Notes under the pieces: model-generated
The model's input: only the letters and a program-made list of their open reading frames with translations
Told to the model about the DNA's origin: nothing
The model's database searches: none
Shown here: one piece after another, positions 5,224 through 31,802 of the stretch
How the letters are laid out: each line of letters begins with the position of its first letter
Numbering within the stretch: the stretch's first letter is position 1
Source: a virus
DNA: 38,487 nt
Direction: 5' to 3' (one strand)
Virus record (IMG/VR): IMGVR_UViG_3300033148_005250
Span: 1 to 38,487 of that record
Made by a program: the position numbers and the translations under genes

Positions 5224-6099
5224 CTACTTGGTCTTTTCTGTTTTCACCATAGGAACCGCCACGTCGCCACGACAGTCAATGACAACGGCGTATGGTGATG
5301 TTAACTTGCCGTCAAATTTGGAATGTTCACCGTAAAGCCTAACAGTTGCGCTGTCCTCGCATCCCCTCACCGACGACAAATCGTAAGCAACCACCGACGA
5401 TGAATTGTAAGCTACCACCGACGATGAATTACAAGCAACCACCGACGATGAATCACAAGCCATCACCGACGACGAATTGTGTGCAATCACCGACGACGAA
5501 TCGTGAGCCACCACCGACGATGAGCCGTTGGCAATCACGGATGACGAATCGTAAGTCCTTACTAATGATGAGTCATAGGCAACCACCGACGACGAACCGT
5601 TGGCTTCTACCGACGATGAATTGTAAGCAGCCACCGATGACGAATCGTGAGCAACCACCGATGACGAATCGTTGGCTTTCACCGACGACGAATCGTAAGC
5701 AACCACCGACGACGAGTCATAGGCCTTTACTAATGACGAGCCATAAGCCTTCACCGACGACGAACCGTAGGCGTAAAATTGCCCTTTATCGACTTTATGG
5801 TCTCCCGATAAAAACACCTTAGCCCTGTGCCAGTCTTTTAAAGCTTTACGTGTACGCTCCTCACACTCACCGGCGTTATACCATTTCGGCAGTAAATCTT
5901 GGTCAACTCGATACACCCACTTTTCAAGCGGTATGCTGTAATCCTGCTTTGGTGGTGATATTTCAACATTCACCGACACGATGTTATTTGCCACCATTTC
6001 TCGGACTTTAAATTCGTCACGAATATCTTCATGACTATCGGAAAACTTACTCCAATAAACCCTCTCTTTTGCTAAAATCATCGATGCGGGTCGGCACAT
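5224..6099 (-). CDS. Octapeptide-repeat (beta-solenoid) early protein
   Basis: 291 residues. GGAGGATATGAA precedes the ATG. Residues 1-109 form a conserved-looking phage N-terminal domain (MILAKERVYWSKFSDSHEDI, then KWVYRVDQDLLPKWY and a charged helix). Residues 110-245 are 17 unbroken octapeptides of the form A-x-x-S-S-S-V-x, where positions 2 and 3 vary among Y/H/N/C and D/G/N, and position 8 among K/V/A/E/R/I/M. This regular pattern suggests a beta-solenoid with one variable face. Residues after 246 are a degenerate cap ending in a beta-rich tail. Similar Ser-Ser-Val repeats occur in other phage proteins. No biochemical role is known to me. Confidence 0.75.
   Translation of the reverse strand: MCRPASMILAKERVYWSKFSDSHEDIRDEFKVREMVANNIVSVNVEISPPKQDYSIPLEKWVYRVDQDLLPKWYNAGECEERTRKALKDWHRAKVFLSGDHKVDKGQFYAYGSSSVKAYGSSLVKAYDSSSVVAYDSSSVKANDSSSVVAHDSSSVAAYNSSSVEANGSSSVVAYDSSLVRTYDSSSVIANGSSSVVAHDSSSVIAHNSSSVMACDSSSVVACNSSSVVAYNSSSVVAYDLSSVRGCEDSATVRLYGEHSKFDGKLTSPYAVVIDCRGDVAVPMVKTEKTK
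5365..5772 (-). repeat. Tandem 24-nt coding repeats, 17 units
   Basis: Seventeen contiguous 24-base units, each coding one octapeptide of the solenoid. Units differ at codons 2, 3 and 8 and at synonymous sites, so they are old or actively shuffled copies rather than a recent slippage expansion. Confidence 0.9.
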
Positions 6100-6685: not shown

Positions 6686-6729
6686 CTTAAACCCCTCAGA
6701 CTAAAATCTGATATAAATATATAATTAAT

Positions 6730-6981
6730 TTAACCAACGCCAGGCCCATAGCCATCGCCAGAACCATAGCCAGAGCCATCGCCAAAGCCATCGCCAGAGC
6801 CAAAGTCATAACCAGAGCCACTGCCAGGGCCATCGCCACCGCCAAAGCCAGAGCCAAAGCCAGAGCCATTACCGGCACCAAAGCCAGAGCCATTACCATC
6901 ACCAAAGCCAGAGCCACCGCCATCATCAAAGCCAGAGCCATTACCAGCACCAAGGCCATAGCCATAATTTATGCTTTCCAT
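6730..6981 (-). CDS. Glycine-rich low-complexity protein
   Basis: 83 residues made almost only of Gly with Ser, Asp, Asn, Phe and Tyr, in repeats such as GSGFGDGN and GSGYGSGDG. AGGGGGTAGAGGT precedes the ATG (MESINYGYG), and this frame overlaps the upstream gene by 13 nt. The alternative frame through the same DNA gives an Ala/Leu/Met/Val polymer and is judged a shadow. Glycine/tyrosine-rich early proteins of this kind are seen in other phages; the role is unknown. The Phe/Tyr spacing would suit a condensate-forming or sticky disordered protein (inference). Confidence 0.6.
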   Translation of the reverse strand: MESINYGYGLGAGNGSGFDDGGGSGFGDGNGSGFGAGNGSGFGSGFGGGDGPGSGSGYDFGSGDGFGDGSGYGSGDGYGPGVG

Positions 6982-8393: not shown

Positions 8394-8921
8394 TCAGAGA
8401 TTTATATAAGCCCCCAGCCTGAATGTGTAACTATTAACAAAAGCGTTAGTCTCCAAACTAAAATTCCTTTCAACCTGGCCGAATAAACCCCAGTTCTCAA
8501 AAGAGTAACCACCGATAAATCCTGCCGCACCTACAATATATGCCATCATGGGTAAATTATCGTTGGGGATATTCTCTAAACTTACTTCTGGCCCAAGTGC
8601 CAATCCACCATAAGCACCGCTTGAAGTTGTTGGTGTAAACAAATACGCGACCTTTCCATTAAGCGACCCTCCATGATCGCCTCCCATCGCTGATAAAAAC
8701 CCATAAAAATTGCCTGAAAGTGGTATCGCAAATCCAGCGTCAAGCTGAAAGGCGTCGCCGTATCCACCCGTTACAACAAAAGCCACAGGATTCTCGGCTT
8801 CATAAGGGACTGTCCCCCATAATCCAGCTTGACTGAATTTACCCCCGCTTGCCGGCGGCGGCATAGCCATTACCGAACCGGCGAGTAACATAACCGTTAA
8901 AATCACCAATATTTTTTTCAT
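8394..8921 (-). CDS. Exported beta-barrel outer-membrane-like protein
   Basis: 175 residues. A textbook signal peptide (MKKILVILTVMLLAGSVMA) ends in V-M-A, giving cleavage near residue 19. The mature part alternates glycine-rich turns with amphipathic strands and ends in YTFRLGAYINL, a plausible C-terminal beta-signal with an aromatic/hydrophobic alternation. This fits a small outer-membrane beta-barrel. Lambda Lom-type proteins show that phages can carry such genes; here it is the last gene of the late operon, after endolysin and holin. It may change the host surface, block superinfection, or help outer-membrane disruption. The function is inference. Confidence 0.65.
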   Translation of the reverse strand: MKKILVILTVMLLAGSVMAMPPPASGGKFSQAGLWGTVPYEAENPVAFVVTGGYGDAFQLDAGFAIPLSGNFYGFLSAMGGDHGGSLNGKVAYLFTPTTSSGAYGGLALGPEVSLENIPNDNLPMMAYIVGAAGFIGGYSFENWGLFGQVERNFSLETNAFVNSYTFRLGAYINL

Positions 8922-8924
8922 TTC

Positions 8925-9128
8925 TCAATCCTTCTTTTTAGTTTTTGCTATTACATGGCCAACGGTCTTGACTGTATATGCCCCAATAATGGCAAGCAAC
9001 AGCCCCGTCCAGTCGCCGACACTAATCATTTTGGGGATTTTGTCTATTGCAATCAGAACAATCGTTCCGACTAAAGCCAGACCACATAATAGAAACGTCC
9101 GGCCGATCCCCCAAAGTTCGTTGTTCAT
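8925..9128 (-). CDS. Putative holin
   Basis: 67 residues with two membrane helices (about 10-28 and 42-60) separated by a short loop (DKIPKMISVGDWTG), and a lysine-rich C-terminus (KTKKKD). It lies right behind the endolysin gene, so it most likely makes the membrane holes that let the signal-less endolysin reach the cell wall. Family cannot be fixed by eye. AGGAGG lies a little upstream of the ATG. Confidence 0.75.
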   Translation of the reverse strand: MNNELWGIGRTFLLCGLALVGTIVLIAIDKIPKMISVGDWTGLLLAIIGAYTVKTVGHVIAKTKKKD

Positions 9129-9140
9129 AAAAAAACCTCC

Positions 9141-9527
9141 TTAAATTAATTCAAAATGTCCGTAATCATAAAATCCTTGATTTTTCATATTCCAGTCACC
9201 ATCCCAGTCGCCACCCCATCTCAACTTAATTTCCATTGAATAAGCTATACCAAGAACAAATCCTGCCATTAGGATAAACTGTTTGATATTATTCCAGTCA
9301 ACAGGTCTGGGTACTAAATCAACCGCCAAAGACGGTGTTTTATTATGCTTGCTGTTTGGCCATGATAACTGAGAATGACCGATTCTTTTCATGCTATTTT
9401 GTTGTTCCTTATCTCGATGCCCTTCTATCACTAAAAGTGGGAAAACCTCTGCCGCCGCTACGACTATTTTCTGCAACCGCACGTCGCAGGTCTCCAGTAT
9501 ATTCGACGAGAACTCGCTTAACGCCAT
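9141..9527 (-). CDS. Endolysin, M15C-type L-alanyl-D-glutamate peptidase
   Basis: 128 residues. The zinc peptidase pattern is complete: GHR (36-38), S-K-H-N-K-T-P-S-L-A-V-D (H61, D70), RWGGDW (104-108) and DYGHFEL (H124). This is the VanY/M15C fold found in many phage endolysins, such as that of T5, which cuts the peptide stems of peptidoglycan. There is no signal peptide, so it needs the adjacent holin. It overlaps the upstream gene by 10 nt. Confidence 0.93.
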   Translation of the reverse strand: MALSEFSSNILETCDVRLQKIVVAAAEVFPLLVIEGHRDKEQQNSMKRIGHSQLSWPNSKHNKTPSLAVDLVPRPVDWNNIKQFILMAGFVLGIAYSMEIKLRWGGDWDGDWNMKNQGFYDYGHFELI

Positions 9528-12085
9528 TTCACCAAATCCTCAAAAGCAATCGAAGTCGTATCCGGAACGTGAACAAACATTCCGGACTCCCGCCGAATCT
9601 TTTTACCATATTGGTCTCGAAAATAAACTTGATAATAACTGCTATCCGACAAATTCGGATTAGCATACAGAGCCACATCCCACGTTCCATAGGCATCCGC
9701 CGTATCATATATGATTGTCTGGGTGATAATAGTATCGTTAAAATACAATATTGAATCCCGCGGGTAGGCTATTAGTTCAAACCTGACCTCAGCGTTCGAA
9801 TAATAATAACCATTGGCCTGTAAGAGCGTCGAATATACCGAAGTCTTATTAGCCGACGACGAATAAGTGTAAAGAGTGCAAGTTGCAGCTCCGGTTATAT
9901 TAATATTATTTGAATCGATTGAAGCATATCCATACGGTGCCGTTGTCAACCTCCAATATCCAGCCGACGGCGCCAATGTCGCCATTCCGTTTGCGTCAGT
10001 TACGCCCCTGTATGGCGACGTCAAACTCATGGCGGTATCGTTCATTGCAACCGTATATCCGGGCAAAGCCGCATTGCCGTTACCCGAATCAAGCACGTAA
10101 ACATACCAGACGTATGGACCGGGTCCTGACCCGCCACCTTGTTCAGTTCGATTACTGTCAACCGCGCCACCGGTGATTTCCCTTGCTGCATGTCCCCAAA
10201 CTGTATCGACTATTCCGGCGAGAGTCACACTTGCCGCCGCACCCTGAGCCGAGTCAAAGAAATCGGAAGTAAACAACCACGTCGGAAAAGTCGAGTCCGC
10301 GAAATTTGTTGAGTCCAGATCGAAACCAAGCGCCGTCAATGTTCTTGCTGGGGTTGAGTCGGCACTCCACACATCAGCGGCACCATGAGTTGAGAACCCG
10401 AGGGCTTTATAATGGGATGAATCATTTAATACAGAATCGGCAATTTTTTTAGCTGCGGACGCTGCCAGTTCGGACGACCCTATCGCATCATCGTCAATCT
10501 TTGCGGAGGTTATTGCGTTACCCCCGATTTCCGGAGCGTCAAGAGTGCCGACAACATCATCTAAATCAATACCAATATTGCTTTCTTCGGTTAAAGTTGA
10601 CCGACTGGAGATATTTGCATCAAGATATGTTGATATCGTATATGACCATATATCATTATCTAATGCGTCGCCGCCAAAAGTATTACCGATGGGATGGTTT
10701 GCTTTTGGTGCATTCCAAACAGCAGCGGCAATTGTCGAGGAGTCAACCCCCTCTCCCTGATATTTTGTTGTCGAATCATTGAGAACTTGACAGATAGCGC
10801 CCCAAACAGCACCGGAATCAAGAGACCCTCCTGGCCCTTGATAAGTACTGGCAGAATCATTGAGAACCTGAATAACGGCTCCCCAGACCGCGCCAGAATC
10901 AAAAGCTGCGCCCTGATATTTAGTGGTGGAATCATTTAAGACCTGACAAATAGCTCCCCAGACTGCGGCGCTATCCAGTCCGGCCGCCGGACCCTGATAG
11001 GTTCCTGAAGAATCATTAAGAACCTGCACTATGGCTCCCCATACTGCCTGAGAGTCTAAACCCGCCGCCGAACCCTGATACGTCGCAGAGGAATCATTTA
11101 AAACTTGGACTACCGCACCCCAAACAGCGCCCGAGTCAAAATTAGTTCCTTGATAGGTTCCAGATGAGTCGTTAAGAACTTGAATAACAGCCCCCCAAAT
11201 AGCAGCCGAATCAAGCGTCGAGAACCCTGTCGCCGTCACGCAATACTGAATACTATCCCTGATGGCCGTTACCGATGTTTGAGATGCCAAAGCTGAGATG
11301 TCTGCCTTATAATCCGCTCGGTTCGCATAGATAGCAGCCTCAATTTCTGTCACAGCCGCAGTCGCTAATTCCGATGATGTGATGGCGTTCGCGCCCAATT
11401 CCGACTCACCGATTGCATCTGTCGCAATAACGGCCGCCGTAATAACACCCGAATTCATTGACGCGACGTTTGCGCTCGCCATAGTGCTGTCGGCGGTTTC
11501 GTCAAAGTCGGACCTGCTTGATATCGTAGCATCCAAATAGCCCGCCTTCGCATCTGTCCATACGTCATTATCAAGAGCATCTCCCCCAAAAGTATTACCC
11601 GTTACATGACCAGAGCGGGGTTCGTCCCAGATGTAGTCGGCCATCTTCAAATAAGCCAATGTGGCAATGGCGTCGTCGTCTATGCAGCCGTCTTTCGTTA
11701 CAAGGGCATTTATAGCATCATTGCCAATATCCCCCTCCTCTATGGCGTTGTTATCGACCGAAGCTACATTGACATCTCTGGTCAATTGATTGGAATAGTC
11801 AACTATATCAAAAGTCGTATCGTTGCCACTGAATACATGAAACACGCCGCTAAGACTCACCTGTGCGGAAAAATCCTCCTTGATTGAATCATTGAGAATA
11901 TACGAAAACCCTGAAGTCCATAATTTGGTATAAATAGAATCGCCGGTTGAGCCATACATTTTCAAACGAACCGAGTCGGGTGTGACCGGCCCACCATCAG
12001 TAAATATTTCCATCACCTGTATATTGGTCGCCCTCGGACTCAACGGCAAAGCCAGTATTATTAACAAAACTATTATTTTTTTCAT
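9518..12085 (-). CDS. Large exported repeat adhesin / fibre-like protein
   Basis: 855 residues. A signal peptide occupies residues 1-19 (MKKIIVLLIILALPLSPRA). Then come a beta-rich domain (20-100), an Asp/Ala-rich collar-like stretch with two copies of G-N-T-F-G-G-D-A-L-D-N-D (about 163-174 and 467-478), and six 23-26-residue repeats with the core W-G-A-x-x-Q-V-L-N-D-S (291-445). The C-terminal 200 residues look like Ig or carboxypeptidase-regulatory-like beta domains (LPGYTVAMND, then YRGVTDANGMATL). Composition is rich in Asp, Ser, Thr and Ala. The position and fibre-like repeats suggest receptor or polysaccharide binding; the signal peptide is unexpected for a virion protein. It overlaps the upstream gene by 4 nt. 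Confidence 0.7.
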   Translation of the reverse strand: MKKIIVLLIILALPLSPRATNIQVMEIFTDGGPVTPDSVRLKMYGSTGDSIYTKLWTSGFSYILNDSIKEDFSAQVSLSGVFHVFSGNDTTFDIVDYSNQLTRDVNVASVDNNAIEEGDIGNDAINALVTKDGCIDDDAIATLAYLKMADYIWDEPRSGHVTGNTFGGDALDNDVWTDAKAGYLDATISSRSDFDETADSTMASANVASMNSGVITAAVIATDAIGESELGANAITSSELATAAVTEIEAAIYANRADYKADISALASQTSVTAIRDSIQYCVTATGFSTLDSAAIWGAVIQVLNDSSGTYQGTNFDSGAVWGAVVQVLNDSSATYQGSAAGLDSQAVWGAIVQVLNDSSGTYQGPAAGLDSAAVWGAICQVLNDSTTKYQGAAFDSGAVWGAVIQVLNDSASTYQGPGGSLDSGAVWGAICQVLNDSTTKYQGEGVDSSTIAAAVWNAPKANHPIGNTFGGDALDNDIWSYTISTYLDANISSRSTLTEESNIGIDLDDVVGTLDAPEIGGNAITSAKIDDDAIGSSELAASAAKKIADSVLNDSSHYKALGFSTHGAADVWSADSTPARTLTALGFDLDSTNFADSTFPTWLFTSDFFDSAQGAAASVTLAGIVDTVWGHAAREITGGAVDSNRTEQGGGSGPGPYVWYVYVLDSGNGNAALPGYTVAMNDTAMSLTSPYRGVTDANGMATLAPSAGYWRLTTAPYGYASIDSNNINITGAATCTLYTYSSSANKTSVYSTLLQANGYYYSNAEVRFELIAYPRDSILYFNDTIITQTIIYDTADAYGTWDVALYANPNLSDSSYYQVYFRDQYGKKIRRESGMFVHVPDTTSIAFEDLVKWR
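10751..11215 (-). repeat. Six tandem coding repeats (W-G-A..Q-V-L-N-D-S)
   Basis: Six units of about 69-78 bases, each with V/I-W-G-A, Q-V-L-N-D-S and a Y-Q-G turn. Copies 4 and 6 are the closest pair (ICQVLNDSTTKYQG in both). Linkers between units vary in length (for example TNF, SAAGL, PAAGL, AAF, PGGSL). Confidence 0.85.
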
Positions 12086-13953
12086 TTTATAGTTACTCCC
12101 TTCAGAGTGGAACCTGAAATATTTATATAATTCGATGCCGACAAATTCGTGAATGTCAATGTCGCTGTTACGCTATCGCCCTGTATTTGTGTTGTGTCGG
12201 TGATATGAAGCGTATCCCAAACAGTGTCATTATCCTTAATTGCTCTTATTATAAAATCATTATAGGTTGTATCCTCGTGCGAATCTCCATCCCACACATT
12301 GAAAAAATAGGTCACATGGTCTTGAATTAATCCCGTCGCTCCCGTTGTGCCGGATAAAACCGTATCACCATTGCCGGAACTGTCAATTACAGCATAATCG
12401 GCACCGTCCGACGCATAACCGGAACTGTCCTCGATTAAGAATTTAACAGACCGAATACGTTGTAATTCCCTGTCGGCGGCCTGTCCTACATCAAAATGAA
12501 CAGAATCATCGTTTGTAAATATAACATCTTGGATTATAACACTGTCTTGATTGAAGGTGTACCACCCAGAAGCGATCGCACCATCAAAATCATCAGCATC
12601 AGAATATGTTGAAGTACCATATCTGTCAAGCGTATCACGCAAAAACTTCCAGCCACTACCCTGTCCCCATTCTCCACCGCCATAAGCGGAATTCATTTTT
12701 ATAACAACACCGTTACTACCGTAATAATTATCATAAGACAGCCTGTCTCGGTGACCGGCAGAATCCGAAGTCTCTATTAAAAACGCAACCACATTTCCCC
12801 AATTATCCTGATAGGTGTTTGAGTCGGCATAAGCTACAATGTGATTATTATATACTCGCCAATGATTGCCGTGCGATGAAAACGACAATCCAACCGCACC
12901 GCCATAAGCTATGGACGAATCACTCCCCGTTGTGTCAATTTTTGTTTCCACATAAATATTATTATCATGTATATACACGGAATCAAGATTTCGGTAGCTC
13001 CTGAGCCTTAACCCATAGCCCCTTAAGCCCCACCCATCCGTTTCGTCAAGCCCACGATGGACGTATATTCTGTTACTGTCACACCGAAATATTCCGGCAT
13101 CGGTAGCCCAAGTGGCTATTTCCCCAAAAGCTATTCCCCTGCCACCAAAAGCCTCGGTGCCGGTACTGCATATATTGTGATGGACTCTTGGTGACCCGTC
13201 GCCTTGCGTTTGGTGAATAGCATAAGAATTTGACGAATTACACGTATCACATCCCGACGGATATGAGTATCTTGTATTTCTGGAATCAACGGTTAAAGTA
13301 CAATAGGATACTTCCGATATGCCCGCAACGGATATTCCCCCATGAAAACAGGAGTCAATCCTAACTCCCGTCACTTTATAATTATACGCACTATCAGTGT
13401 TTCGATGCGTTTCCCCTTGAATCTGTAAATAAATACTAAGCGAATAAAAATCTTTTCGATTATTGTAACTTCGACAATAATTAGTATAATTGCCGCCGTC
13501 TATCAAGAGCATGGTCGCACTTTCACAATAAACATTCATACTGTTGGGTGACTTTACATGAACATTACAATCCCTTATCGTAAATTTATCGTTTCCGCCA
13601 ACCCTTATTCCTTGCGCCCACTCACCAAGAGTGTCGTTGGCGGTATCCTCGATTATAGTCAGGCTTTCAACGACACAACCATCTACATCATTAAGGTATA
13701 AACCCCAAACACCGCCACCATTCACCCCCGTTCCCGATGAATCCTCAAGATTAAACCAGATAGTGTCGCCGCCACCTTCGATGGTTATATTGGCCGCCGA
13801 TATTGTAATAGCATCGCCATTATTACAGGTCAAATTTCCCGATAAAACATACGTGCTGTCGGCCTGATTGCACGTATAAGGTAATGATGATATGGTTATA
13901 TCACCCCACGCCAAAATCGGCAATAATATCAATATAAGAAATGTGTGTCTCAC
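12082..13953 (-). CDS. Exported right-handed beta-helix (pectate-lyase-like) protein
   Basis: 623 residues. Signal peptide MRHTFLILILLPILAWG, then a pattern of short repeated strands typical of parallel beta-helix proteins: ITIEGGGDTIWF, CVVESLTII, GIRVGGNDKFTIRDCNV, MLLIDGGNY, GISVAGISEVSYCTL, VYIHDNNIYV (about residues 50-400). The last 150 residues are a separate beta domain ending in SGSTLKGVTIK. Phage beta-helix proteins often bind or cut host polysaccharide; catalytic residues cannot be assigned by eye. It overlaps both neighbours by 4 nt, so it is translated together with them. Confidence 0.75.
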   Translation of the reverse strand: MRHTFLILILLPILAWGDITISSLPYTCNQADSTYVLSGNLTCNNGDAITISAANITIEGGGDTIWFNLEDSSGTGVNGGGVWGLYLNDVDGCVVESLTIIEDTANDTLGEWAQGIRVGGNDKFTIRDCNVHVKSPNSMNVYCESATMLLIDGGNYTNYCRSYNNRKDFYSLSIYLQIQGETHRNTDSAYNYKVTGVRIDSCFHGGISVAGISEVSYCTLTVDSRNTRYSYPSGCDTCNSSNSYAIHQTQGDGSPRVHHNICSTGTEAFGGRGIAFGEIATWATDAGIFRCDSNRIYVHRGLDETDGWGLRGYGLRLRSYRNLDSVYIHDNNIYVETKIDTTGSDSSIAYGGAVGLSFSSHGNHWRVYNNHIVAYADSNTYQDNWGNVVAFLIETSDSAGHRDRLSYDNYYGSNGVVIKMNSAYGGGEWGQGSGWKFLRDTLDRYGTSTYSDADDFDGAIASGWYTFNQDSVIIQDVIFTNDDSVHFDVGQAADRELQRIRSVKFLIEDSSGYASDGADYAVIDSSGNGDTVLSGTTGATGLIQDHVTYFFNVWDGDSHEDTTYNDFIIRAIKDNDTVWDTLHITDTTQIQGDSVTATLTFTNLSASNYINISGSTLKGVTIK

Positions 13954-15269
13954 AATTTTACCTTGCCCAATACGGTATTGCCCATGCTTTTGGTATTAGA
14001 TTCACCCGCATCGGCAGACGACGTGTCTGTAATTGTTATATAAAATATGGAATCGGTTGTGCTGTGTTCCCAGATGGCAAAACCCTGTCGAGAATAAGCA
14101 TTGTGGACAGGGTTAAAATAATACACACCCGTTTTACCCGGATACCCTCGCGTTACCAGTTCCCTTGCCGACCAACTGTTGTCGTCGGGATCATAGGCTC
14201 GCATATAAACAAATTGACTGTCATAACTGTCGGCCCCGGTTCGGTCGATATAAAACAAACAAAATTTCCCATTAATAACCATTCCCGCATTTTGAAAATC
14301 TTCGCCAGACATTGTTGGGTAATCAGCAGTGTCAAGATGTTGACTACTCCATGCACCATTTCCTCCGGCATGTTTACGCCAATAAGCCCACAAGGTGTCA
14401 GCCTCACCATGACAAAATATCAGTGTTGAGCTGTCCGCCGTAGCGTCAAGAATAGCATTAAAAGAAAAGGCTCGCTGTTGAGACTTTATGCTGTTTTCAA
14501 CTTTGATAGTATCCTGACTTGCCACATAAAAACTGTCGTTAACATTATCCCATTGACAAACAACAATGCTTGTATCCGATAAAACCAAAGCGGCGGGTTC
14601 GCCGTTTATCCATTCTGTAATACCTGTTCGACTGCTTGTGTTATTGGGTGCGCCGGTAGAATCCAGCCAACCACCAACGCCACTGTCACTCCACGGGTCG
14701 CTAAAATATTCCGTGTATTGATATTTGGCGTCCAAGCTGTCATACAGGCTTGTTCCCCAGCACGTTACCCACAATCTATTATTTGCGGTATCATAACCAA
14801 TTTGTCCCCTTTGCAAATTGGGATAAGTAACTCCCAAATGCTCGTCCGTTAGCAATACTTGGTCACGCATCGCAGGTGTTCCAGAATTATTATAAACTAT
14901 CGCCACGGCCGGTCTGCCACCAGTGCTACGCATAATTGCAATACTATCATGTTTCATTATCGTAATATTATCGTGCATGTCGGGCGGTCCGGATTCCCAC
15001 GTTTCTGCTGACGACCATGAAGCTCCCGCATTACTGCTTAAATACGTTGTAACTCGCATATAAACCCACCATTGAGAGCTGTCCGTCATACTTATGGCGC
15101 ATCTGCTAAATGGAATCGATAAAGTGGGTGTATCCATATCTTCATGGTCTAAAAATGTCGGCGAGCCATACTCAAAATCACCGCCCTTGACTATTGAACA
15201 AAGCACAAAAAGCGACAGCGCAAACAATGCGGCAATCATAAAATATATATGTCTGTTACCGTTTTTCAC
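13950..15269 (-). CDS. Exported beta-propeller (sialidase/BNR-like) protein
   Basis: 439 residues from a GTG start with AGGCGAG upstream. The N-terminus (about 10-30, YFMIAALFALSLFVLCSIV) is a signal peptide or anchor. The rest has repeated four-strand blade patterns with Asp-box-like turns: SSNAGASWSSAETW, NGAWSSQHLD and DDNSWSARELV, as in sialidase or six-bladed propellers. The likely role is binding or hydrolysis of a glycan. The last residues (TVLGKVKL) end just as the next gene begins (4-nt overlap). No catalytic site can be claimed. Confidence 0.68.
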   Translation of the reverse strand: MKNGNRHIYFMIAALFALSLFVLCSIVKGGDFEYGSPTFLDHEDMDTPTLSIPFSRCAISMTDSSQWWVYMRVTTYLSSNAGASWSSAETWESGPPDMHDNITIMKHDSIAIMRSTGGRPAVAIVYNNSGTPAMRDQVLLTDEHLGVTYPNLQRGQIGYDTANNRLWVTCWGTSLYDSLDAKYQYTEYFSDPWSDSGVGGWLDSTGAPNNTSSRTGITEWINGEPAALVLSDTSIVVCQWDNVNDSFYVASQDTIKVENSIKSQQRAFSFNAILDATADSSTLIFCHGEADTLWAYWRKHAGGNGAWSSQHLDTADYPTMSGEDFQNAGMVINGKFCLFYIDRTGADSYDSQFVYMRAYDPDDNSWSARELVTRGYPGKTGVYYFNPVHNAYSRQGFAIWEHSTTDSIFYITITDTSSADAGESNTKSMGNTVLGKVKL

Positions 15270-15270
15270 T

Positions 15271-15882
15271 TCAATCTCGCCTTGTCATTATAATTTGTGC
15301 GGCGGACTCACCGCCACCGATTGATTGCCCAGAGCAATAAACACAATAGTCCCTGCCCAAAAGACTGTCTTCCACTGTCCAAGGGTCTTCCCAAGACCCG
15401 TAAGATACAACCTCGTCATATCCGTAAGGGTATGGAACAGGTGATTGAGTATCGTAAAAAAATTCCATCTCTTGCACGGGAGAGCCGCCGCAATCGTCGC
15501 ACCATATAGTTATAATAATATTATCGTTGGTTGATAAGGTGCAAGCTTCTGAAATTTCAAACCCATACCACGCTTCTGCGCCGTCCTTCGCAATCGACCT
15601 TTCGGCGGTATAGCATTCTTGGCCGTGATCGCTTTTCAAATAAAGTGATGCCTTGCAAAGATAATTGTCAAAAAGAGAAGAGCAATCGGGGTCTAAGTAG
15701 GCATAAACAGATTCCACAACCATAGAATCGGGCGGTGAATGATTACTGCCCCTCATGTGGTTATCAGCATCGACTATTGAAATCGCCGAGTCTCTATCGT
15801 TCCCGCAAACAATCCTTTCGGCCATAGATGTTACAGGTAAAAGTAACAATAATATAAATATCAGGTGTTTTGTTATTCGCAT
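15271..15882 (-). CDS. Exported beta-sandwich-like protein
   Basis: 203 residues. A clean signal peptide (MRITKHLIFILLLLLPVTSMA) ends in S-M-A before E-R-I. The mature part has nine or more cysteines (for example VCGND, DPDCSS, YLCKAS, WCDDCGG, DYCVYCSG), suggesting disulphides and therefore real export to an oxidising compartment. It is strand-rich and resembles jelly-roll carbohydrate-binding modules in pattern only. It sits between the fibre-propeller gene and the second propeller gene, overlapping the first by 10 nt. Confidence 0.65.
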   Translation of the reverse strand: MRITKHLIFILLLLLPVTSMAERIVCGNDRDSAISIVDADNHMRGSNHSPPDSMVVESVYAYLDPDCSSLFDNYLCKASLYLKSDHGQECYTAERSIAKDGAEAWYGFEISEACTLSTNDNIIITIWCDDCGGSPVQEMEFFYDTQSPVPYPYGYDEVVSYGSWEDPWTVEDSLLGRDYCVYCSGQSIGGGESAAQIIMTRRD

Positions 15883-18800
15883 AGTGTTTTCCCATAATAT
15901 CTAATGCTAAATCTTATCCAGTCTATATCAGTATCGGGTGTGTTTATATAAATAATTTTACCTTTTTCAATTTCGTCATCTGTAAACAATTCGGATTGCG
16001 CCCTTTGGTCGGAAGCTCCAATATTAAGAGTATCTATATGTCTTTCAAGAACAGGCGGGTCTGCGCCTGTAAATTCATAAAGATTGAAAGCATAAGCCCC
16101 ATCTTCACTTGTCTGTAATTCTGCCCCAAGTATTTTTATACCTCTTGGAAACTCATTAGAATCAACATAAAATATCGGGATAGTATCCGTAATTAAATCA
16201 GGATTCCAAATCATAGCCTCCGCCGTTTTAATCCTTTTATTCCTGTCAAAAGTTACATAGGTTTGTCCCATATGATATTCATGATCGCTACCACCACCCC
16301 GTAGAGCCGAATACCACATTCTAAATCTTAACCCATCACCACTATTTTCAGCGATAAATGTTGGTCGATATAAGTTCCCGCCCGAATCCCACGCCGCCGG
16401 CGTCATGCCCGGTTCCAATAAAACCCTGCCCGTCATATCCCAAGTTACACCGCCATCGTAACTCGCCAGATGTTTCAAACTATAATCTACAAGGTCTGAA
16501 CCTTTGCACGATGCAATACAATGATACTCCCTGCCCAATTTAAGTATATCGCCGTGCCACAAGCCTTTAGCGGTATCACTATAATAATTGTTAATGATGC
16601 AAGTGTCCGTTAACGTAAAAACCGAATCACCAAAAAGGGTTGTCGCCGCATACCTAATTAAATAATTGCTGGTATCCGATGTCGTCGCATCATAAATTAA
16701 GAACATTAAAACAGTATCACCGTCCCCCTGTTCAACCATCGGTGATAAAGGAGTCCCGCCAGAAGCATGATAAGAATAAAAAAGGCTGTCATTATCCCAG
16801 TTAAATAAATTATTAGAATGAGCGGCGCAAATATATCTTGACGTATTACTCGAATAACTTTCATAAGAAGTGTCCTCGGTGTCGTTGGTGACACTATAAA
16901 TCGAGTCCCTTGATGCGTTTGCCGTGTAAAAAACATAGAGCCTGTTATTTTTATCAATAAACAAATCAGGGTCGGCCGAAGCGTCTTGTGAGGTCATCCC
17001 GAAAATAACTTGCACTACTGTATCATAATACGGAAAATCCGAGTCATATCGTTTATACCAATAATTCATATCAGTAACTTCAGTAACAGGGTCTTTAATA
17101 CAAAGCGAAACAGTATCGCCCGCCGACGTAGTACAGGAAACACACGCTCTTTGCCAGTCGTTATATTTACCTGTTTTACTTACTTTTATAGTTGCGTTTT
17201 CATAAGGTATAACCGGCAATGGTGTCCACGCTATAAGATACGGCCATTTAGCCTCTTCAATCGCCCAAGCCGCCACCAGTGTATCAGGTGATGCCGACGT
17301 ATCATAAGCATAAATTGAATCGCCTTTTTCACAACCATAACCGCCTGGCACGTATAAAGCCGAAGGATGCACACCGCAATAAAAAGTATCAGTCAACCCA
17401 CCACCATGAGCCGTGTCGTCATAAGCGTAATTACCGAGCCTGTCCCAATTCTCTCCGTTATCACAAAAGATTTGAGACGTGTCGATTGCTTCTTTATAAT
17501 TATTCCGCCCAAGTTGCCCGTAAAGATTAAAATCACCGGCATCAGACGCCACACCCACCGAGTCATCTTTTGGCACCCAATTTGAACCGTCGTATTTTAA
17601 AACTTTACCAGATGATGCTCCCATCGGTGCTATATCCGTCGAGTCAACCGTATTCGCTTGAATGTGATAACCCCTAATAGAATTGGCCGCCATGTCAATA
17701 GAATCTATTGTGCCGTTGGTTATTTCATCAGAAGTAATTGAGGTTCCAAGCGTAGCTTCAACATCATTAGCATTAACTGTTATTCCCGTTCCAGCCCCCA
17801 CATTGAGAGTAACATCACCCGAAGCCCCTCCATCAGTCAATCCATTCCCTGCCGTTACGCCGGTAATATCGCCAGTGTTTTTGGTAAACCCGCTATCAGA
17901 AACAATAATTGCAACCTCGCCCGAATCAAGCGTATGATTGCGAATATCAGACGTAACTTGTAATACATTGGAACCGACCTCTAAACCATCACCATTGAAA
18001 TCATTTATACTATCGTCGCTTAAAATAATACCCGTATTAAATCCAGTCCAACCCGCAGTGCCGAGAAATAATGGGTTGGAGCCGCTATACTTCAAGCTAT
18101 CACCATCCATGTATAGTGAATCACCGGCCGCTGTTTCCTTTATTCTCTTTGTCCAACCCGACGAATCACTATACTTGGAAGACGAATCTGAAACACTAAC
18201 ATCAACCTCATAATCAATAGTGCTATCACCGGATTGATATGTAACTGTTATCCCCGTCTCGGTATTACCAGTCGCCGCCTTTGTCATTCTGGCATTGATA
18301 GAGTCCCCCATTTCTCCACGCACAACATCGGCGGTATCGTGAATGTCCCCCCTTATATCTGTAATCTTATCCCCGTGTATTCCTATCGTATCAGTATAAA
18401 CCGCATCGGCCAATAAACTATCGACATCCTTGATATTGTTGTTGTCCATATCCAACGGCGAGGTCATGTGAAAATAGTCATCTGCATCGTTCCAACTGAA
18501 ATAATGATAGTTGGCGGCACTGTCACCAAATCCAATTTTAAGGTCTTGCTCATCATCGCTTTTATCGCTACGTATTTCAAGTGCCATCTTGGTTAAAATA
18601 CTGTCGTGACTCGGCATCACTGCTTTAAGTGATGTTCCAAAAGCTATTGTTCCTTTGGCTCCGGCGGTAATAATAGGTGCTTCAGCCGACACACTAACCG
18701 CCGTGTCAACCTGAGTGCTGTCGTTTAATTGTGTTGAACCGACAACCCCCATCATTCGCCCGATAGTTCCCGTATTGCCAGCAGTGGTTCCGGTTTTACC

Positions 18801-19697
18801 TATAAATTGCGCACCATTGATTCCCTGAGCGTGCCCGTCACCGTCGAATCTTGAAACCGCCGTCATACCAATAATCCAGTTAATAGTATCTCCCGAATCA
18901 GGAAATACATAAGACTGAAAATAACCCCCGTAAGCACGTTTGGCGTTTGCGAGAGAATGAGAACCACCCCGAACATGAAGATAACTGCCTATCCCAACCT
19001 GATGTTCAGTCGAGTCATCTTCAACACTATCTTTAACAAAAGCACCTATGCGAGACAACCCAAGATTTAATTCGCTGGAAGTGTCCGCCCCGAATGTAAC
19101 AAGGTTTTGAGCTTCTATCTCGCCAATATCGGTAATATCATTATCTCCCATTTCAATATTACCGGACATAGTGCCGCCGGTAAGCCGCAAAGCAAGATCA
19201 GCGGTGTCGTGAATCCAGTCTTTAATCTCATCGGCCGAATCTGCCAAGTTCCAACCGCCCGAACCCATATCCTGCCATGTCGTGCCGTCGTTTGAATATT
19301 CCCAAGTCGAATCATTACCATTATACCTAATTCCCCCCCTTCTCCCTGATGGTATCTGAATAAGCAGATTAACAACCGTGTCCGTTGTGGTATCACCAAC
19401 CCATACAGTATCGTTCTCAATTCGGGTAACCGTATTACAGGAGCTTCTTATTCGGCCATCGGCATAATAGAAAGTGGAACAATCCGGTGTTTTGCTTGTA
19501 TCTATTTCGTAATAAGCCGTAATGGCAAGATTGCGAGGTCGGAGCATTGTTCCACTATGGGTGGGTTTTAATTGATCAAACTTCGCTACACCGCAAAGCC
19601 CATTGGCGGCCATGACGATAGCCAACACTATGTAAAAAGCCAGTCCCATACCTAACATTATCCAAACACCGTATTTCTGATTTTCTTTTTCTGTCAT
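15873..19697 (-). CDS. Giant fibre protein with membrane anchor and C-terminal glycosidase-like propeller
   Basis: 1,274 residues from the ATG at 19697 (MTEKENQKYGVW), which follows the upstream stop by 1 nt; a TTG at 19724 lies inside the upstream gene. Residues about 9-32 form a hydrophobic helix (WIMLGMGLAFYIVLAIVMAA). Next is a tail-fibre-like region: LTGGTMSGNIEMGDNDITDI is the usual phage fibre strand motif, and ITGVTAGNGLTDGG with the following repeats is typical of collar/fibre domains. The C-terminal ~500 residues look like a five-bladed propeller of the GH43/GH32 type (DPDLFIDKNNRLYVFYTA, LWHGDILKLGREYHCI, FRMWYSAL), followed by a small beta domain. Probably the main receptor-binding or depolymerase protein. 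Confidence 0.75.
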   Translation of the reverse strand: MTEKENQKYGVWIMLGMGLAFYIVLAIVMAANGLCGVAKFDQLKPTHSGTMLRPRNLAITAYYEIDTSKTPDCSTFYYADGRIRSSCNTVTRIENDTVWVGDTTTDTVVNLLIQIPSGRRGGIRYNGNDSTWEYSNDGTTWQDMGSGGWNLADSADEIKDWIHDTADLALRLTGGTMSGNIEMGDNDITDIGEIEAQNLVTFGADTSSELNLGLSRIGAFVKDSVEDDSTEHQVGIGSYLHVRGGSHSLANAKRAYGGYFQSYVFPDSGDTINWIIGMTAVSRFDGDGHAQGINGAQFIGKTGTTAGNTGTIGRMMGVVGSTQLNDSTQVDTAVSVSAEAPIITAGAKGTIAFGTSLKAVMPSHDSILTKMALEIRSDKSDDEQDLKIGFGDSAANYHYFSWNDADDYFHMTSPLDMDNNNIKDVDSLLADAVYTDTIGIHGDKITDIRGDIHDTADVVRGEMGDSINARMTKAATGNTETGITVTYQSGDSTIDYEVDVSVSDSSSKYSDSSGWTKRIKETAAGDSLYMDGDSLKYSGSNPLFLGTAGWTGFNTGIILSDDSINDFNGDGLEVGSNVLQVTSDIRNHTLDSGEVAIIVSDSGFTKNTGDITGVTAGNGLTDGGASGDVTLNVGAGTGITVNANDVEATLGTSITSDEITNGTIDSIDMAANSIRGYHIQANTVDSTDIAPMGASSGKVLKYDGSNWVPKDDSVGVASDAGDFNLYGQLGRNNYKEAIDTSQIFCDNGENWDRLGNYAYDDTAHGGGLTDTFYCGVHPSALYVPGGYGCEKGDSIYAYDTSASPDTLVAAWAIEEAKWPYLIAWTPLPVIPYENATIKVSKTGKYNDWQRACVSCTTSAGDTVSLCIKDPVTEVTDMNYWYKRYDSDFPYYDTVVQVIFGMTSQDASADPDLFIDKNNRLYVFYTANASRDSIYSVTNDTEDTSYESYSSNTSRYICAAHSNNLFNWDNDSLFYSYHASGGTPLSPMVEQGDGDTVLMFLIYDATTSDTSNYLIRYAATTLFGDSVFTLTDTCIINNYYSDTAKGLWHGDILKLGREYHCIASCKGSDLVDYSLKHLASYDGGVTWDMTGRVLLEPGMTPAAWDSGGNLYRPTFIAENSGDGLRFRMWYSALRGGGSDHEYHMGQTYVTFDRNKRIKTAEAMIWNPDLITDTIPIFYVDSNEFPRGIKILGAELQTSEDGAYAFNLYEFTGADPPVLERHIDTLNIGASDQRAQSELFTDDEIEKGKIIYINTPDTDIDWIRFSIRYYGKTLCE

Positions 19698-19698
19698 A

Positions 19699-20007
19699 TC
19701 AACCGCCCGTGTCTTTATTGTCAACTCTATATTTTATTTCTTGCAAGATCGACAGCATCACCGAATCATTAGCCCTTGCGGATTTCCTGTAATCTTCAAA
19801 TTCACATCTCAAATTCATAATTTCCTTAACAATGTATTCCTGCTTTAACTCCTGCTTTTCCTGTTTGGATTCGACCGACCGGACACTATCCTTCAACTGC
19901 CCGTGCGAAATATAGTAACTGGCAACAACCGTCCCGACTATTAACGCAAACCATATCAATAACTTAAAATTCTTCGTTGTCATCGTCCCGTTGCTTGGCC
20001 TCTGCAT
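19699..20007 (-). CDS. Membrane protein with periplasmic coiled coil
   Basis: 102 residues from the ATG at 20007; AGGAG lies eight bases before it, while the ATG at 20013 is too close. A membrane helix (about 12-30, LLIWFALIVGTVVASYYI) is followed by a long charged coiled coil (SVESKQEKQELKQEYIVKEIMNL onward). Topology is like an inner-membrane spanin or a BhlA-like protein, but the position is between tail hub and fibre rather than next to the endolysin. It might anchor or help export the proteins that follow. Function unknown. Confidence 0.6.
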   Translation of the reverse strand: MQRPSNGTMTTKNFKLLIWFALIVGTVVASYYISHGQLKDSVRSVESKQEKQELKQEYIVKEIMNLRCEFEDYRKSARANDSVMLSILQEIKYRVDNKDTGG

Positions 20008-20018: not shown

Positions 20019-22226
20019 CTATGTTATAGACAAATTCACTGCTTTAATTACCGTCCGGTCAAGATGGTTTTCTAAATGGGTGATAATAAAAGGCTTATTA
20101 TACCAAGTTTCACCATACAATAATAATTGAGGATCAACTGTATTATGGTCTAAACAAATAGCATCACCGATTTCAAGATTGGAATAATAATGTCCTGGTG
20201 TTTCAATTTCAAGAACCGGATGCTTGTTAGCCAGTAACCCATCGCCGTTACTATCAGTCCCATCAGCCGACTTTACATAATGTCGAGCGATATGTTGAGC
20301 AGAAGTTCCAGCTAACATCGGCCAATTGACCGATTTAATTCCTTCCCCATATAGGGTTTCCGATGCGGAATTATTATAAACATCGGAATCTCTATATAAA
20401 TCATATTCCGCTTGCCAGCGACTTTTCACATTCAAAGTATTTATAATATTATTATCACTCTGAGTAATCTTTATATTGCCATCGATAATGTGGGAAAAAG
20501 GAATTTCGGCATCATCATTAGGCGTCGAGTCAGATAGGTCGATTAGTTTAGCTTTACCTGTGGCCGTCCATACAAAAGTGAAGGTCGATTGCTCTGTTAT
20601 CTTGCGAATAATTTCCCAGACATTTTCTTCTTCAGTAATATTTAATCGTGCTTTAACGCTTGTATTCTCTGCTATTACAAAACTAATCACATCAATATCA
20701 GCACCAACTAAACCGAGTTCATCCCGTAATAAGGATTCGATTATCCCTGCAGGATCTTCGATACAATCGCCGTCAGAATAATTGCTTGATCGGCCGGTTA
20801 TCCATGAACCATAAACTCGCCCATCGGCGGCAGCAAAACCATTTGTGTAATCTTCGGGTAAATAATTAATTAAAAGTAATAGGCCGTAAATTTCAGCCAA
20901 ATCCCAATTACCAGTTATCCCGTCACCCGCAGAACAAACATCATCACACATTAAAAAATATACCGCATTGGGCGTAAGGACTTCTGATGTTGACGTCATA
21001 GTAAAACTTGCCCAATGATTAATAGTATTTACCCAAACAGCAGGGTTGTTAGTAGTCCACTGAACATTTACATTTGTATAAATTCTATCTTCATAAGTAT
21101 TCGCAAATTTATACCGCCAAGAATCGAAAGACACTCCCGCATAAATATTTCTTATTTTATATCGCAGAATGAAACTTCGCAATCTTTCCGCAGCTTTAAT
21201 GTTTGCGGTGTCTTCGGGGATGATTCTTCTAAGCCATTCGCTAAATTGAAATTTATAAACAGCATCGCCGCAAACAGCATTGCCCGCCCCGTCGTCCCGA
21301 CCATCCACAATAGTCGCATAGCTATCACCATCGCGGTCAATTGCTCTTAAATAATTAGTCGGATCTATTTCGTCCCCAACTCTTGTGAGATTGTCATTGC
21401 GAGCGTCCATTAATTCAAGGCGTAAATTAAAAGTATCTTCCGGCGTATAAGTTGTTCGACCGGAATCATCGAGGGTAACGCTTGCGCTGGTTGTATCGGA
21501 TTTCGCCGGAAGATTACCGGCATTACTCTCTGAAACGAATAATTCACTTGTCGTTAAAGCGTCGCATATATGGTCTGATACTACCATCTTTGGCGGAGTT
21601 TCGTTATTAATGGGAATCGACTTAGCTAATCCCTCGGACGTTTCGGTGTAATCATTAAAAATATTTGGCTCGGTAAATTTACCATAGACTAAAGGTATTT
21701 TCTTTCCTGCATATTCTTCCGGTGCATCGCTGTATATATCACCCACCAGATTTTGTGGGAGAATCGTTTCATTAAGTTTGGTCTTGTCAACCAGTGTTAC
21801 ATAAACATATTCGGCGTCATATTCCGGTTCGCAAAAAACATACCCGTCAAATCGTTTAAGACAACCGCCTGGTATTGATGTCATACTGCTACCGCATTGT
21901 AAGTATATATATGCCGCCTTACCAACGATGCCGGTCAAATCGTCTGACAATTTTATCCAGCTACCATCGGTATCACGCTTATAATCTTTATTTTGTAATT
22001 TAACTGTCACATTAGAGACTGACCAAGTGTGGTCAAGGATGTCAACATCTTCCACGATTCCGGAATGACCAGCCAAAAGAGCATAAACATGGTTGACACC
22101 AAATTGCATTTCCATTTGAGAAAAAAAGAAATTTTTAGAACCATCGGTTAGCCAGACAATTGTATTATTAACTTGTCCGCTCAATCGATAAAACGCTTTA
22201 AATTCTTCACTCATTGACAATGACAT
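20019..22226 (-). CDS. Tail hub / tail-tip protein
   Basis: 735 residues. It lies after the distal tail gene, where siphophages place the hub (gp27-like) or Tal protein. The C-terminal half holds IEDPAGIIESLLRDELGL and NVWEIIRKITEQSTFTFVWTATGKAKLIDL, which resemble the hub-domain pattern of tail proteins that start with a membrane-insertion or baseplate scaffold. No peptidase domain is seen. It overlaps the upstream gene by one base. Confidence 0.72.
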   Translation of the reverse strand: MSLSMSEEFKAFYRLSGQVNNTIVWLTDGSKNFFFSQMEMQFGVNHVYALLAGHSGIVEDVDILDHTWSVSNVTVKLQNKDYKRDTDGSWIKLSDDLTGIVGKAAYIYLQCGSSMTSIPGGCLKRFDGYVFCEPEYDAEYVYVTLVDKTKLNETILPQNLVGDIYSDAPEEYAGKKIPLVYGKFTEPNIFNDYTETSEGLAKSIPINNETPPKMVVSDHICDALTTSELFVSESNAGNLPAKSDTTSASVTLDDSGRTTYTPEDTFNLRLELMDARNDNLTRVGDEIDPTNYLRAIDRDGDSYATIVDGRDDGAGNAVCGDAVYKFQFSEWLRRIIPEDTANIKAAERLRSFILRYKIRNIYAGVSFDSWRYKFANTYEDRIYTNVNVQWTTNNPAVWVNTINHWASFTMTSTSEVLTPNAVYFLMCDDVCSAGDGITGNWDLAEIYGLLLLINYLPEDYTNGFAAADGRVYGSWITGRSSNYSDGDCIEDPAGIIESLLRDELGLVGADIDVISFVIAENTSVKARLNITEEENVWEIIRKITEQSTFTFVWTATGKAKLIDLSDSTPNDDAEIPFSHIIDGNIKITQSDNNIINTLNVKSRWQAEYDLYRDSDVYNNSASETLYGEGIKSVNWPMLAGTSAQHIARHYVKSADGTDSNGDGLLANKHPVLEIETPGHYYSNLEIGDAICLDHNTVDPQLLLYGETWYNKPFIITHLENHLDRTVIKAVNLSIT

Positions 22227-23041
22227 TAGTACAAATCTCCATCATCGATATACGGAAGTTCTTCAAATATTACTATTGGCCGGTATAATTCGTCCTGATA
22301 TTGCCGTTGGTTGATTATATCGCTACCGAATTTAACCAAGAGGGCATCATCATAAGTGCTACCCTCCTGTAAAATCAAGGGAGTACCCTCTCCCCAAGAA
22401 TCCTGATGGGCAGACCGTAAATACCCAAACGTCGTGGAATTATAGAAGTGGAATCTTCGCGATAATATTTTGTGTGACCGACGATTAATCCGGCTGGTTA
22501 CTTGTCGCCCACCGCCAATTTTAGCAATACGTGTATGAAAGACATCCTCATCATATTCAGGCCATTCGTCACCCTGCCCCAAATCATATTCATTTGCAAG
22601 CCACAACCCCGCCAATTCAATTACTTCATTTTGGTCGGTAATTCCAACCTTCCAATATCGATGACTGACACCATTCCCTGTCGTTATACTTTCGATTCGC
22701 AAAGGTCCGGCTGTTAGACCTCCAATAGCCTTATCAGTCGGCTCCGTGCAAGCTGTCCATGCAGAGCCATCGTCCGAATAACTTAAATCGACTTGAACCT
22801 GAGTCGGGGTGTTTGTCAGCGTTGTATAGTTTCTTATAAATAATATCAGTGTATCGACAGCATGAGTGGATTCCAAATCGATTTCAATTTCGACATTCGA
22901 CGTTGATGTCGGCTGCCACCAAGTGTCAGGATTATTGTCGAGTGCCATTTCAATGATATGTCCAGAAGCCTCTGACGGGCTATTATGAGCGTGGGCTTCC
23001 TCCATCGCCGCAAAAGTATATAGCTTAATATTATTAGCCAT
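22226..23041 (-). CDS. Distal tail protein with discoidin-like domain
   Basis: 271 residues. Residues 25-150 resemble an F5/8 type C (discoidin) carbohydrate-binding fold: ALDNNPDTWWQPTS, IEIDLESTHAVDTLILF, VDLSYSDDGSAWTAC, HRYWKVGI. The rest is a beta-rich domain ending in ELYRPIVIFEELPYID, like Dit/minor tail proteins. Directly follows the tape measure gene, the usual place for the distal tail protein. Likely links tail tube and tip, with some glycan binding. Confidence 0.72.
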   Translation of the reverse strand: MANNIKLYTFAAMEEAHAHNSPSEASGHIIEMALDNNPDTWWQPTSTSNVEIEIDLESTHAVDTLILFIRNYTTLTNTPTQVQVDLSYSDDGSAWTACTEPTDKAIGGLTAGPLRIESITTGNGVSHRYWKVGITDQNEVIELAGLWLANEYDLGQGDEWPEYDEDVFHTRIAKIGGGRQVTSRINRRSHKILSRRFHFYNSTTFGYLRSAHQDSWGEGTPLILQEGSTYDDALLVKFGSDIINQRQYQDELYRPIVIFEELPYIDDGDLY

Positions 23042-24834: not shown

Positions 24835-25229
24835 TTTGTTTTCTCTCTGTCAAGTAACATACAGACCTCATGCCAGATTGCCGGCTGGTCGTAATATTCC
24901 TCTATAGTCCTAACCCGATTCAGTCCGTCAATGGCGACATACAGCTTCATGGCTTCGGCGGAAAAGGGTGTGATGAGTGGCACCGGACACAATCCAAACA
25001 ATTCAAGTGTTTCCAATTCCGATAATTGAGGCCTGCCCGTCTTTGCCCATGCCTCGAAGACCCTATCAACTGATTCCTTCGAGACAACGAATGGCTCAAA
25101 CCCCTGCGCCTTAACTGTAACGGCATCATTGAACATGAGACACTTTCTTTTTTCCCTGTCACAGCCCGCACAATCATACTGCCCCGGCTTCTTTCGTTGC
25201 CGAGCCGTTAGTTGCACGAGCAATCTCAG
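24810..25229 (-). CDS. Tail assembly chaperone, -1 frame extension (gpT-like part)
   Basis: This frame continues from the upstream chaperone after a -1 ribosomal shift at 25229-25235 and adds 139 residues, starting LRLLVQLTARQRKKPGQYDC and ending before the tape measure start. The fusion totals about 254 residues. It has an early cysteine cluster (CAGCDREKRKC) and a helical C-terminal half. In lambda the GT fusion binds the tape measure and tail tube protein during tail assembly. Independent initiation at TTG 25223 is possible but less likely. Confidence 0.82.
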   Translation of the reverse strand: MRLLVQLTARQRKKPGQYDCAGCDREKRKCLMFNDAVTVKAQGFEPFVVSKESVDRVFEAWAKTGRPQLSELETLELFGLCPVPLITPFSAEAMKLYVAIDGLNRVRTIEEYYDQPAIWHEVCMLLDREKTKWQATQTS

Positions 25230-25573: not shown

Positions 25574-25577
25574 ATTA

Positions 25578-26639: not shown

Positions 26640-26832
26640 TTTTTTTCACCACCTTTTCGGATTTTTTAGGTTCAACAACTTTCTGAACAAAGCCCCTCGC
26701 AATTAATGCCTCAGCAGCGTCAATCTTTAAATCAACAATCACCCCGGTTTGTAGTTTCCTATAATCGGGAACATCAATAACCGGAAATATTGTCTGCCAA
26801 CGTGGCATCTTCTTAATTGCTTTTACTTTCAT
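26629..26832 (-). CDS. Small structural-region protein
   Basis: 67 residues from the ATG at 26832 (MKVKAIKKMPRWQTIF), with a GGGGTG site before it; an ATG at 26862 lies inside the upstream gene. It has a compact domain (VIDVPDYRKLQTGVIVDLKIDAAEALIARGFVQ) and a lysine-rich tail. A short protein of this type between the neck and tail tube genes is common; its role is unknown. It overlaps the tube gene's start by 11 nt. Confidence 0.6.
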   Translation of the reverse strand: MKVKAIKKMPRWQTIFPVIDVPDYRKLQTGVIVDLKIDAAEALIARGFVQKVVEPKKSEKVVKKNGN

Positions 26833-26842
26833 AATTACACCC

Positions 26843-28272: not shown

Positions 28273-28273
28273 T

Positions 28274-31259: not shown

Positions 31260-31802
31260 TTACGGTTTGCCATACCATTCATAATAGAGTTGGTAAATGA
31301 CATCGTCTGAATCATTGGTTATATAAGCCCCGGCCAATGTGTCGTCCAGAATCCCGATAATTTTCATATAAACATTCTCGAGACAACATTTCGACGAATC
31401 GGTAAGTTTTACGATATAAGTCTGGACAGCGGAATCTACAATAGGTATTGTCAAACTGTATATGTTCGTGTCATTAAAATAAGAACTATTCGACCCTGTA
31501 TATACTTGAATTCGCAATGAATCATCTGTCGTATCAATACCAACGGCATCGAGGGAATAAAGCCCGATTCTATATCGTAGAGTTATAGAGCTATAATTGC
31601 CGGCCGCTGTGAAATAAGCCATAGCGGCTGACGTGTCCGTTACCATATCAACGGAATCACCGGATAGAGTGTAGAGATTCATTCCGGTAACTCGCATTCC
31701 CTTCGGTTTCTCGCCTGCAACAGGATTGCCCGGCATATTTAGCATCAAGGCAAAGCCCACGAACAGCAAAAACCCGAAAGCTATTAGTCTTTTTTTAGAC
31801 AT
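31260..31802 (-). CDS. Signal-peptide protein inserted between portal and capsid genes
   Basis: 180 residues. Residues 1-30 (MSKKRLIAFGFLLFVGFALM onward) are a signal peptide with a possible end at P-V-A-G. The mature part is beta-rich and Asp/Ser/Thr-rich (ISLTI-like strands, TDTSAAMAYFTAAGNYSSITLRYRIGLY), like the exported proteins of the fibre locus. Position between portal and capsid would suggest a decoration or assembly protein, yet the signal peptide argues for export. Near-identical TGATTAAT..GGGGGTC elements lie just after the stop codons on both sides, so the gene may be an inserted cassette. Confidence 0.6.
   Translation of the reverse strand: MSKKRLIAFGFLLFVGFALMLNMPGNPVAGEKPKGMRVTGMNLYTLSGDSVDMVTDTSAAMAYFTAAGNYSSITLRYRIGLYSLDAVGIDTTDDSLRIQVYTGSNSSYFNDTNIYSLTIPIVDSAVQTYIVKLTDSSKCCLENVYMKIIGILDDTLAGAYITNDSDDVIYQLYYEWYGKP

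Follow-up and report, generated by a model that had tools for sequence, protein, structure and literature searches.

Why would a tailed phage place signal peptides on its fibre proteins? Tailed-phage fibres are generally taken to assemble in the cytoplasm, and the late region of IMGVR_UViG_3300033148_005250 encodes a series of fibre-type proteins with N-termini that look destined for export. The window analyzed here, 38,487 nucleotides long, begins and ends with the same 114 bp (1-114 and 38374-38487, an exact terminal repeat); because the two ends are identical, the genome is complete and its map closes into a circle of about 38.4 kb. The genome belongs to a small siphovirus-like, tailed, terminase-packaging phage, in which we recognized TerL, a portal-MuF fusion, a protease-capsid fusion, neck genes, a 597-aa tape measure and a candidate for the tail hub or tip. 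The late genes run leftward, and all window genes given by coordinates below lie on the minus strand. The hub candidate (20019..22226) sits past the tape measure gene and has no hydrophobic N-terminus. Beyond it follow a gene for a small coiled-coil membrane protein, five genes of fibre type, a gene for an M15-type endolysin (9141..9527; phrog_465, E = 1.6e-28), a small two-TM gene (8925..9128), whose product is a holin candidate by its hydrophobicity and its position next to the endolysin, and a gene for a 175-aa protein. The 102-aa protein encoded between hub and fibre genes (19699..20007) has an N-terminal TM segment and a coiled coil, as the original prediction stated. Its similarity to Rz-like spanins is weak (phrog_739, E = 0.005); its assignment to a two-component spanin was rejected, as no lipobox ORF for a lipoprotein partner, whether overlapping, embedded or adjacent, lies nearby.

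Six genes of this locus begin with a hydrophobic N-terminus: 15873-19697 (MTEKENQKYGVWIMLGMGLAFYIVLAIVMA/ANG, the slash marking the predicted cleavage site here and below), 15271-15882 (MRITKHLIFILLLLLPVTSMA/ERIV), 13950-15269 (GTG start; MKNGNRHIYFMIAALFALSLFVLCSIVKG/GD), 12082-13953 (GTG start; MRHTFLILILLPILAWG/DITI), 9518-12085 (MKKIIVLLIILALPLSPRA/TNIQ) and 8394-8921 (MKKILVILTVMLLAGSVMA/MPPP). The original prediction described all six as basic and hydrophobic. Hydrophobicity holds throughout, and five (8394, 9518, 12082, 13950 and 15271) are ordinary Sec signals with a basic n-region, a hydrophobic core and small residues at -3/-1, but the n-region of 15873-19697 has a net charge of about zero, followed by a 20-residue core. 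Because of this long core and uncharged start, it may be an anchor rather than a cleaved signal peptide. The N-termini singled out as ideal or near-ideal signal peptides, ending in TSMA, SVMA and LAWG, match their description. Our rule-based scorer, which was checked on known signal peptides and passes about 1.2% of shuffled proteins, accepts all six fibre-locus genes but, at 20019-31802, one of 13 genes of the head and tail modules (Fisher p = 3e-4). The starts themselves are tightly packed: the gap to the upstream gene ranges from -10 to +3 bases, with an ATGA overlap with the upstream stop at 12085 and a GTGA overlap at 13953. An SD-like motif precedes five of the six; at 19697 it is weak, but the ATG lies 1 base past the upstream stop. 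Since every start abuts or overlaps an upstream stop, the six hydrophobic N-termini are probably translated, and the products of the locus are predicted substrates of Sec and signal peptidase I.

What kind of proteins are these? The first large fibre gene, 15873..19697 (1274 aa), carries the fibre motif GDITGVTAGNG and, in a search of cultured phages, shows 45-62% identity over 39-94 residues, a short motif region, to structural and tail fiber proteins of Pelagibacter phages. It is the only locus protein with a sequence relation to known tail fibres, the others matching nothing; for these, the main argument for fibre identity is their position between the hub and lysis genes. The 203-aa product of 15271..15882, which overlaps its upstream gene by 10 bases and has an ideal Sec signal peptide (VTSMA/E), is as cysteine-rich as had been claimed, with nine Cys (4.95%) in the mature part; across the whole signal-peptide set, Cys is not clearly enriched (1.31% versus 0.98%). 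The 439-aa product of 13950..15269 contains, by eye only, a sialidase Asp-box-like motif and gave no match to families, phages or PDB, and the 623-aa product of 12082..13953 (LAWG/D) none to families or PDB. The 855-aa product of 9518..12085 (SPRA/T) has VWGA/VWDE-type repeats, a class that occurs in many viral contigs, and its gene contains six direct repeats spaced 75-81 bp apart. The fold names given earlier (propeller, helix, barrel) were not confirmed: the proteins have no family match and the models are of low confidence, with single-sequence AlphaFold2 of the 8394 and 12082 products reaching pLDDT 34 and 32 and no usable fold.

The 175-aa product of 8394..8921 stands apart. It has an ideal signal peptide and ends in FRLGAYINL, a C-terminus of alternating hydrophobics; its hydrophobic alternation (z = 2.4 versus shuffles) was the highest among eight window proteins tested, and it has no Pfam, PHROG or NCBIfam match. 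Because the gene lies beyond the lysis genes and its product has this outer-membrane C-terminal pattern, we separate it from the fibres as a Lom-like candidate, by pattern probably an outer-membrane beta-barrel of the Lom/Ail type and more likely so than a fibre. Phage lambda exports Lom, and its lom gene, between J and stf, likewise places an exported outer-membrane protein in a late fibre region. In lambda, however, the signal is found on Lom only; neither J nor the side-fibre ORFs carry one, unlike the window fibres.

But what about signal-like N-termini elsewhere in the genome? The one scoring gene among the 13 head and tail genes is 31260..31802, located in the head module between the portal and major capsid genes. 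Its 180-aa product (MSKKRLIAFGFLLFVGFALMLNMPGNPVAG/EKPK) has the same basic n-region, hydrophobic core and small residues at -3/-1, contains two Cys, has no family match and was not listed by the original prediction as having a signal peptide. The gene is identical in contig L002, the sole near-copy of the head region, and its signal peptide stands where only cytoplasmic head proteins would be expected. The longest reading of TerL (33953-35638), from a TTG start, also has a signal-like N-terminus; this start is probably false, because it overlaps another, upstream gene and a later ATG has a GGTG motif.

How common is the arrangement? Scans of viral contigs with the hub candidate, 15873, 12082 and the portal found no relative beyond the near-copy of the head region (L002), TerL has there, apart from that near-copy, only distant relatives of 20-34% identity, and tblastn of 9518 and 13950 in cultured phages gave no match. 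A search for the same gene order and signals in relatives thus found no sequence relative of the fibre locus in the collections covered. Two fibre motifs, GDITGVTAGNG and VWDEALSGH, gathered 182 viral loci. Among complete fibre proteins in viral contigs, a signal peptide was called in 0 of 97 with the former motif and in 5 of 44 with the latter, four of them distinct, and every signal-bearing VWDEALSGH protein adjoins further signal-peptide genes (L012, L051, L058/L073, L061). Six genome contigs with the VWDE pattern, from mixed phyla, have no signal peptide on any readable VWDE protein. Judged by predicted signals, fibres with signal peptides are rare, yet recur in unrelated phages. The view that they are not expected in tailed phages therefore holds for most (none in the GDITGVTAGNG fibres, in lambda J and Stf, or in phi4:1, phi14:2, 11b and RAP44), but the window represents a recurrent exception rather than a unique one. 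In one of these contigs, L051, the signal-peptide gene at 67-1056 encodes a polysaccharide lyase (PF14099, E = 4e-25) and lies directly upstream of phage head-tail genes.

The closest parallel, and the most informative comparison, comes from cultured phages. Nine Cellulophaga phages of several families (phi10:1, phi19:1, Nekkels_1, phi19:3, phi13:2, phi46:3, phi18:3, Ingeline_1 and phi39:1) have tail genes followed by a run of two to five fibre or pectate-lyase genes with signal peptides and then small membrane or lysis genes. According to the record annotations, MS/MS identified thirteen products of this kind, from four phages, as virion proteins: gp91-94 of phi10:1, in which gp91-95 are five consecutive signal-peptide genes of the fibre region, gp101-104 of phi19:1, all of which have signal peptides, gp25-26 of phi39:1 and gp85-87 of phi18:3. 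The cassette is also present in phi19:3, phi13:2, phi46:3, Nekkels_1 and Ingeline_1, whose own records carry no MS notes. None of the other structural proteins checked in the cassette phages has a signal peptide, and 11b, P12024S, RAP44, phi14:2, phi38:1, phi46:1, phi4:1, B124-14 and Danklef_3 have no cassette; nor does lambda, apart from Lom. Like these cassettes, the window has a run of signal-peptide genes that separates tail from lysis genes, while other structural genes mostly lack such signals. No homology links the fibres of the two sides, so the likeness is one of layout rather than of demonstrated descent.

The Cellulophaga signals bear signs of function. Across seven phages, the lyase signal has accumulated 11 synonymous and 0 non-synonymous changes, a pattern by which its codons are under purifying selection. 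In phi18:3 and Nekkels_1, the signal and the first ~118 residues are conserved while the remainder is exchanged, which is how a module for attachment to the virion would behave. phi4:1, phi17:2 and phi14:2 share the lyase domain, with alignments that begin only near residue 117, and in phi4:1 the lyase-domain protein, annotated as a virion protein, has no signal. Environmental relatives of the anchor module are almost only the cultured phages themselves and one metagenomic contig. The related pectate-lyase domains with a signal in some Cellulophaga phages and without in phi4:1 (L220:3065-8832 versus L195:44100-46433) amount to a natural swap. Gln at +1 is the mark of most signal-peptidase I substrates in Bacteroidetes (PMC5837995, PMC10653852), and it is found in 12 of 13 distinct Cellulophaga cassette signals, a count biased towards Gln because the sites were picked by eye. 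The +1 residues of the six window proteins are M, T, D, G, E and A, none of them Gln, as expected if the host is not a member of the Bacteroidetes.

How, then, could such proteins reach the virion? Real signals combined with presence in the virion would most simply mean that export precedes attachment, the latter taking place in the periplasm or at lysis. From the directly observed gene order, start sites, signal-peptide sequences and parallel with cultured phages, we infer that the proteins are exported and cleaved, and where and when they attach, for the window and the Cellulophaga phages alike. We give an even chance to the reading that Sec exports the window fibres and that they are added to the virion outside the cytoplasm, probably close to lysis. 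Heads and tails would assemble in the cytoplasm, while the fibre proteins would cross the inner membrane via Sec and be cut by signal peptidase I, with 15873 perhaps staying anchored. The fibres would fold in the periplasm, where the Cys-rich 15271 product could form disulfides. Once the envelope had been opened by the holin and endolysin encoded next to them, released incomplete virions would pick up the waiting fibres and so mature outside the cytoplasm; the 8394 product would be exported separately, as a Lom-type protein of the outer membrane. The suggestion that fibres join the virion outside the inner membrane, which the original prediction offered next to secreted depolymerases and surface display, gains by analogy from the thirteen MS/MS-annotated proteins of phi10:1, phi19:1, phi39:1 and phi18:3; evidence of virion association lies entirely on the Cellulophaga side, the window phage being known from its genes alone. 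Counting against this reading are the lack of homology between window and Cellulophaga fibres, the absence of +1 Gln from the window signals and the more anchor-like start of 15873.

Several other explanations have to be weighed against export and later attachment. After export the proteins could be set free as depolymerases, adhesins or receptor decoys and never become parts of the virion, those of Cellulophaga phages having co-purified. Co-purifying secreted proteins can occur in virion preparations, the Cellulophaga cassettes include pectate lyases, and the lyase gene of the unrelated locus L051 is one of two adjacent signal-peptide genes. Yet free release has to account for thirteen virion annotations in four phages, for a conserved N-terminus with swapped C-termini that resembles an attachment module, and for the virion annotation of the signal-less lyase-domain protein in phi4:1, and we consider it unlikely, though the likeliest of the alternatives. 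Somewhat less likely still, the N-termini may merely resemble signal peptides, stay uncleaved and anchor the fibres to the tail or membrane while assembly proceeds in the cytoplasm. The long cores and weak cleavage regions of 15873 and 19699 would suit such a role, as would the conservation of the Cellulophaga signal codons as part of the N-terminal module; however, the signals of the window are mostly short and have a basic n-region and small -3/-1 residues, anchor function leaves the Cellulophaga +1 Gln unexplained, and nothing alike is found on the hub or tape measure proteins.

The proteins might instead act on the surface of the infected cell, in superinfection exclusion or lysogenic conversion, in the manner of Lom. 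Signal-peptide genes following the Q rule in Porphyromonas gingivalis prophages have been read as outer-membrane surface modifiers (2023; PMC10367356); they resemble the window genes as phage genes adapted to the host Sec pathway and differ in not being linked to fibres. With its outer-membrane barrel pattern and the position of lom within lambda's fibre locus as precedent, 8394 fits this explanation well. The other genes fit it poorly: they are part of the late operon that runs from tail to lysis, a fibre motif is present in 15873, and no integrase or repressor was recognized among the window genes scanned, so we regard surface action as improbable for the locus. Farthest from the evidence is a misreading of the start sites, with translation beginning downstream of the hydrophobic parts. 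In-frame ATGs do lie near the cleavage site in 15271 (codon 20) and 8394 (codons 18 and 20), but they have no SD, whereas the upstream starts mostly do and adjoin or overlap the preceding stops; 12082 has no start at all between codons 14 and 41, and the error would be needed six times over, which makes this explanation very improbable indeed.

Finally, we would like to place export followed by attachment into the context of known phage biology. The coat proteins pIII and pVIII of filamentous phages are synthesized with signal peptides and join the particle outside the cytoplasm, but these phages are membrane-assembled filaments, whereas the window phage is tailed and terminase-packaging. The parts are known and their arrangement is unexpected. 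Our literature search found no description of Sec-exported or signal-peptide tail fibres, which is weak evidence of absence since most subscription journals lay outside it; the flavophage paper naming several of the Cellulophaga phage families does not mention signal peptides (PMC8776804). With slightly less than even confidence, we propose more generally that virion completion takes place outside the cytoplasm in some tailed phages, with fibres exported by Sec, cleaved, oxidized and attached at or after lysis, and a receptor-binding apparatus that matures in a separate compartment. If true, receptor-binding proteins would fold in a different place, making disulfides and N-terminal processing possible, and this may explain why one cassette is common to phages of different families. 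A signal peptide in a phage genome would then not by itself imply a host-surface moron. The question can be studied in cultured phages, as virion proteomics exist for phi10:1, phi19:1 and phi18:3.

Some further observations deserve mention. Beside GDITG tail fibre genes, two marine viral contigs encode curli-secretion proteins, CsgG (PF03783, E = 1e-45) and CsgF (PF10614, E = 3e-13) at L081:22-1495 and CsgF (E = 1e-17) at L172:4976-5449; a third, L124:4003-6411, looks alike by eye and adds curlin-like repeat proteins. In the window itself, tandem 24-bp units fill 5317-5820 within the gene 5224-6099, which has a weak PHROG match only, and 12/18-bp repeats at 6722-6979 encode a Gly-rich protein (ORF 6730-6981), the Ala/Leu/Met protein of the other frame being spurious.
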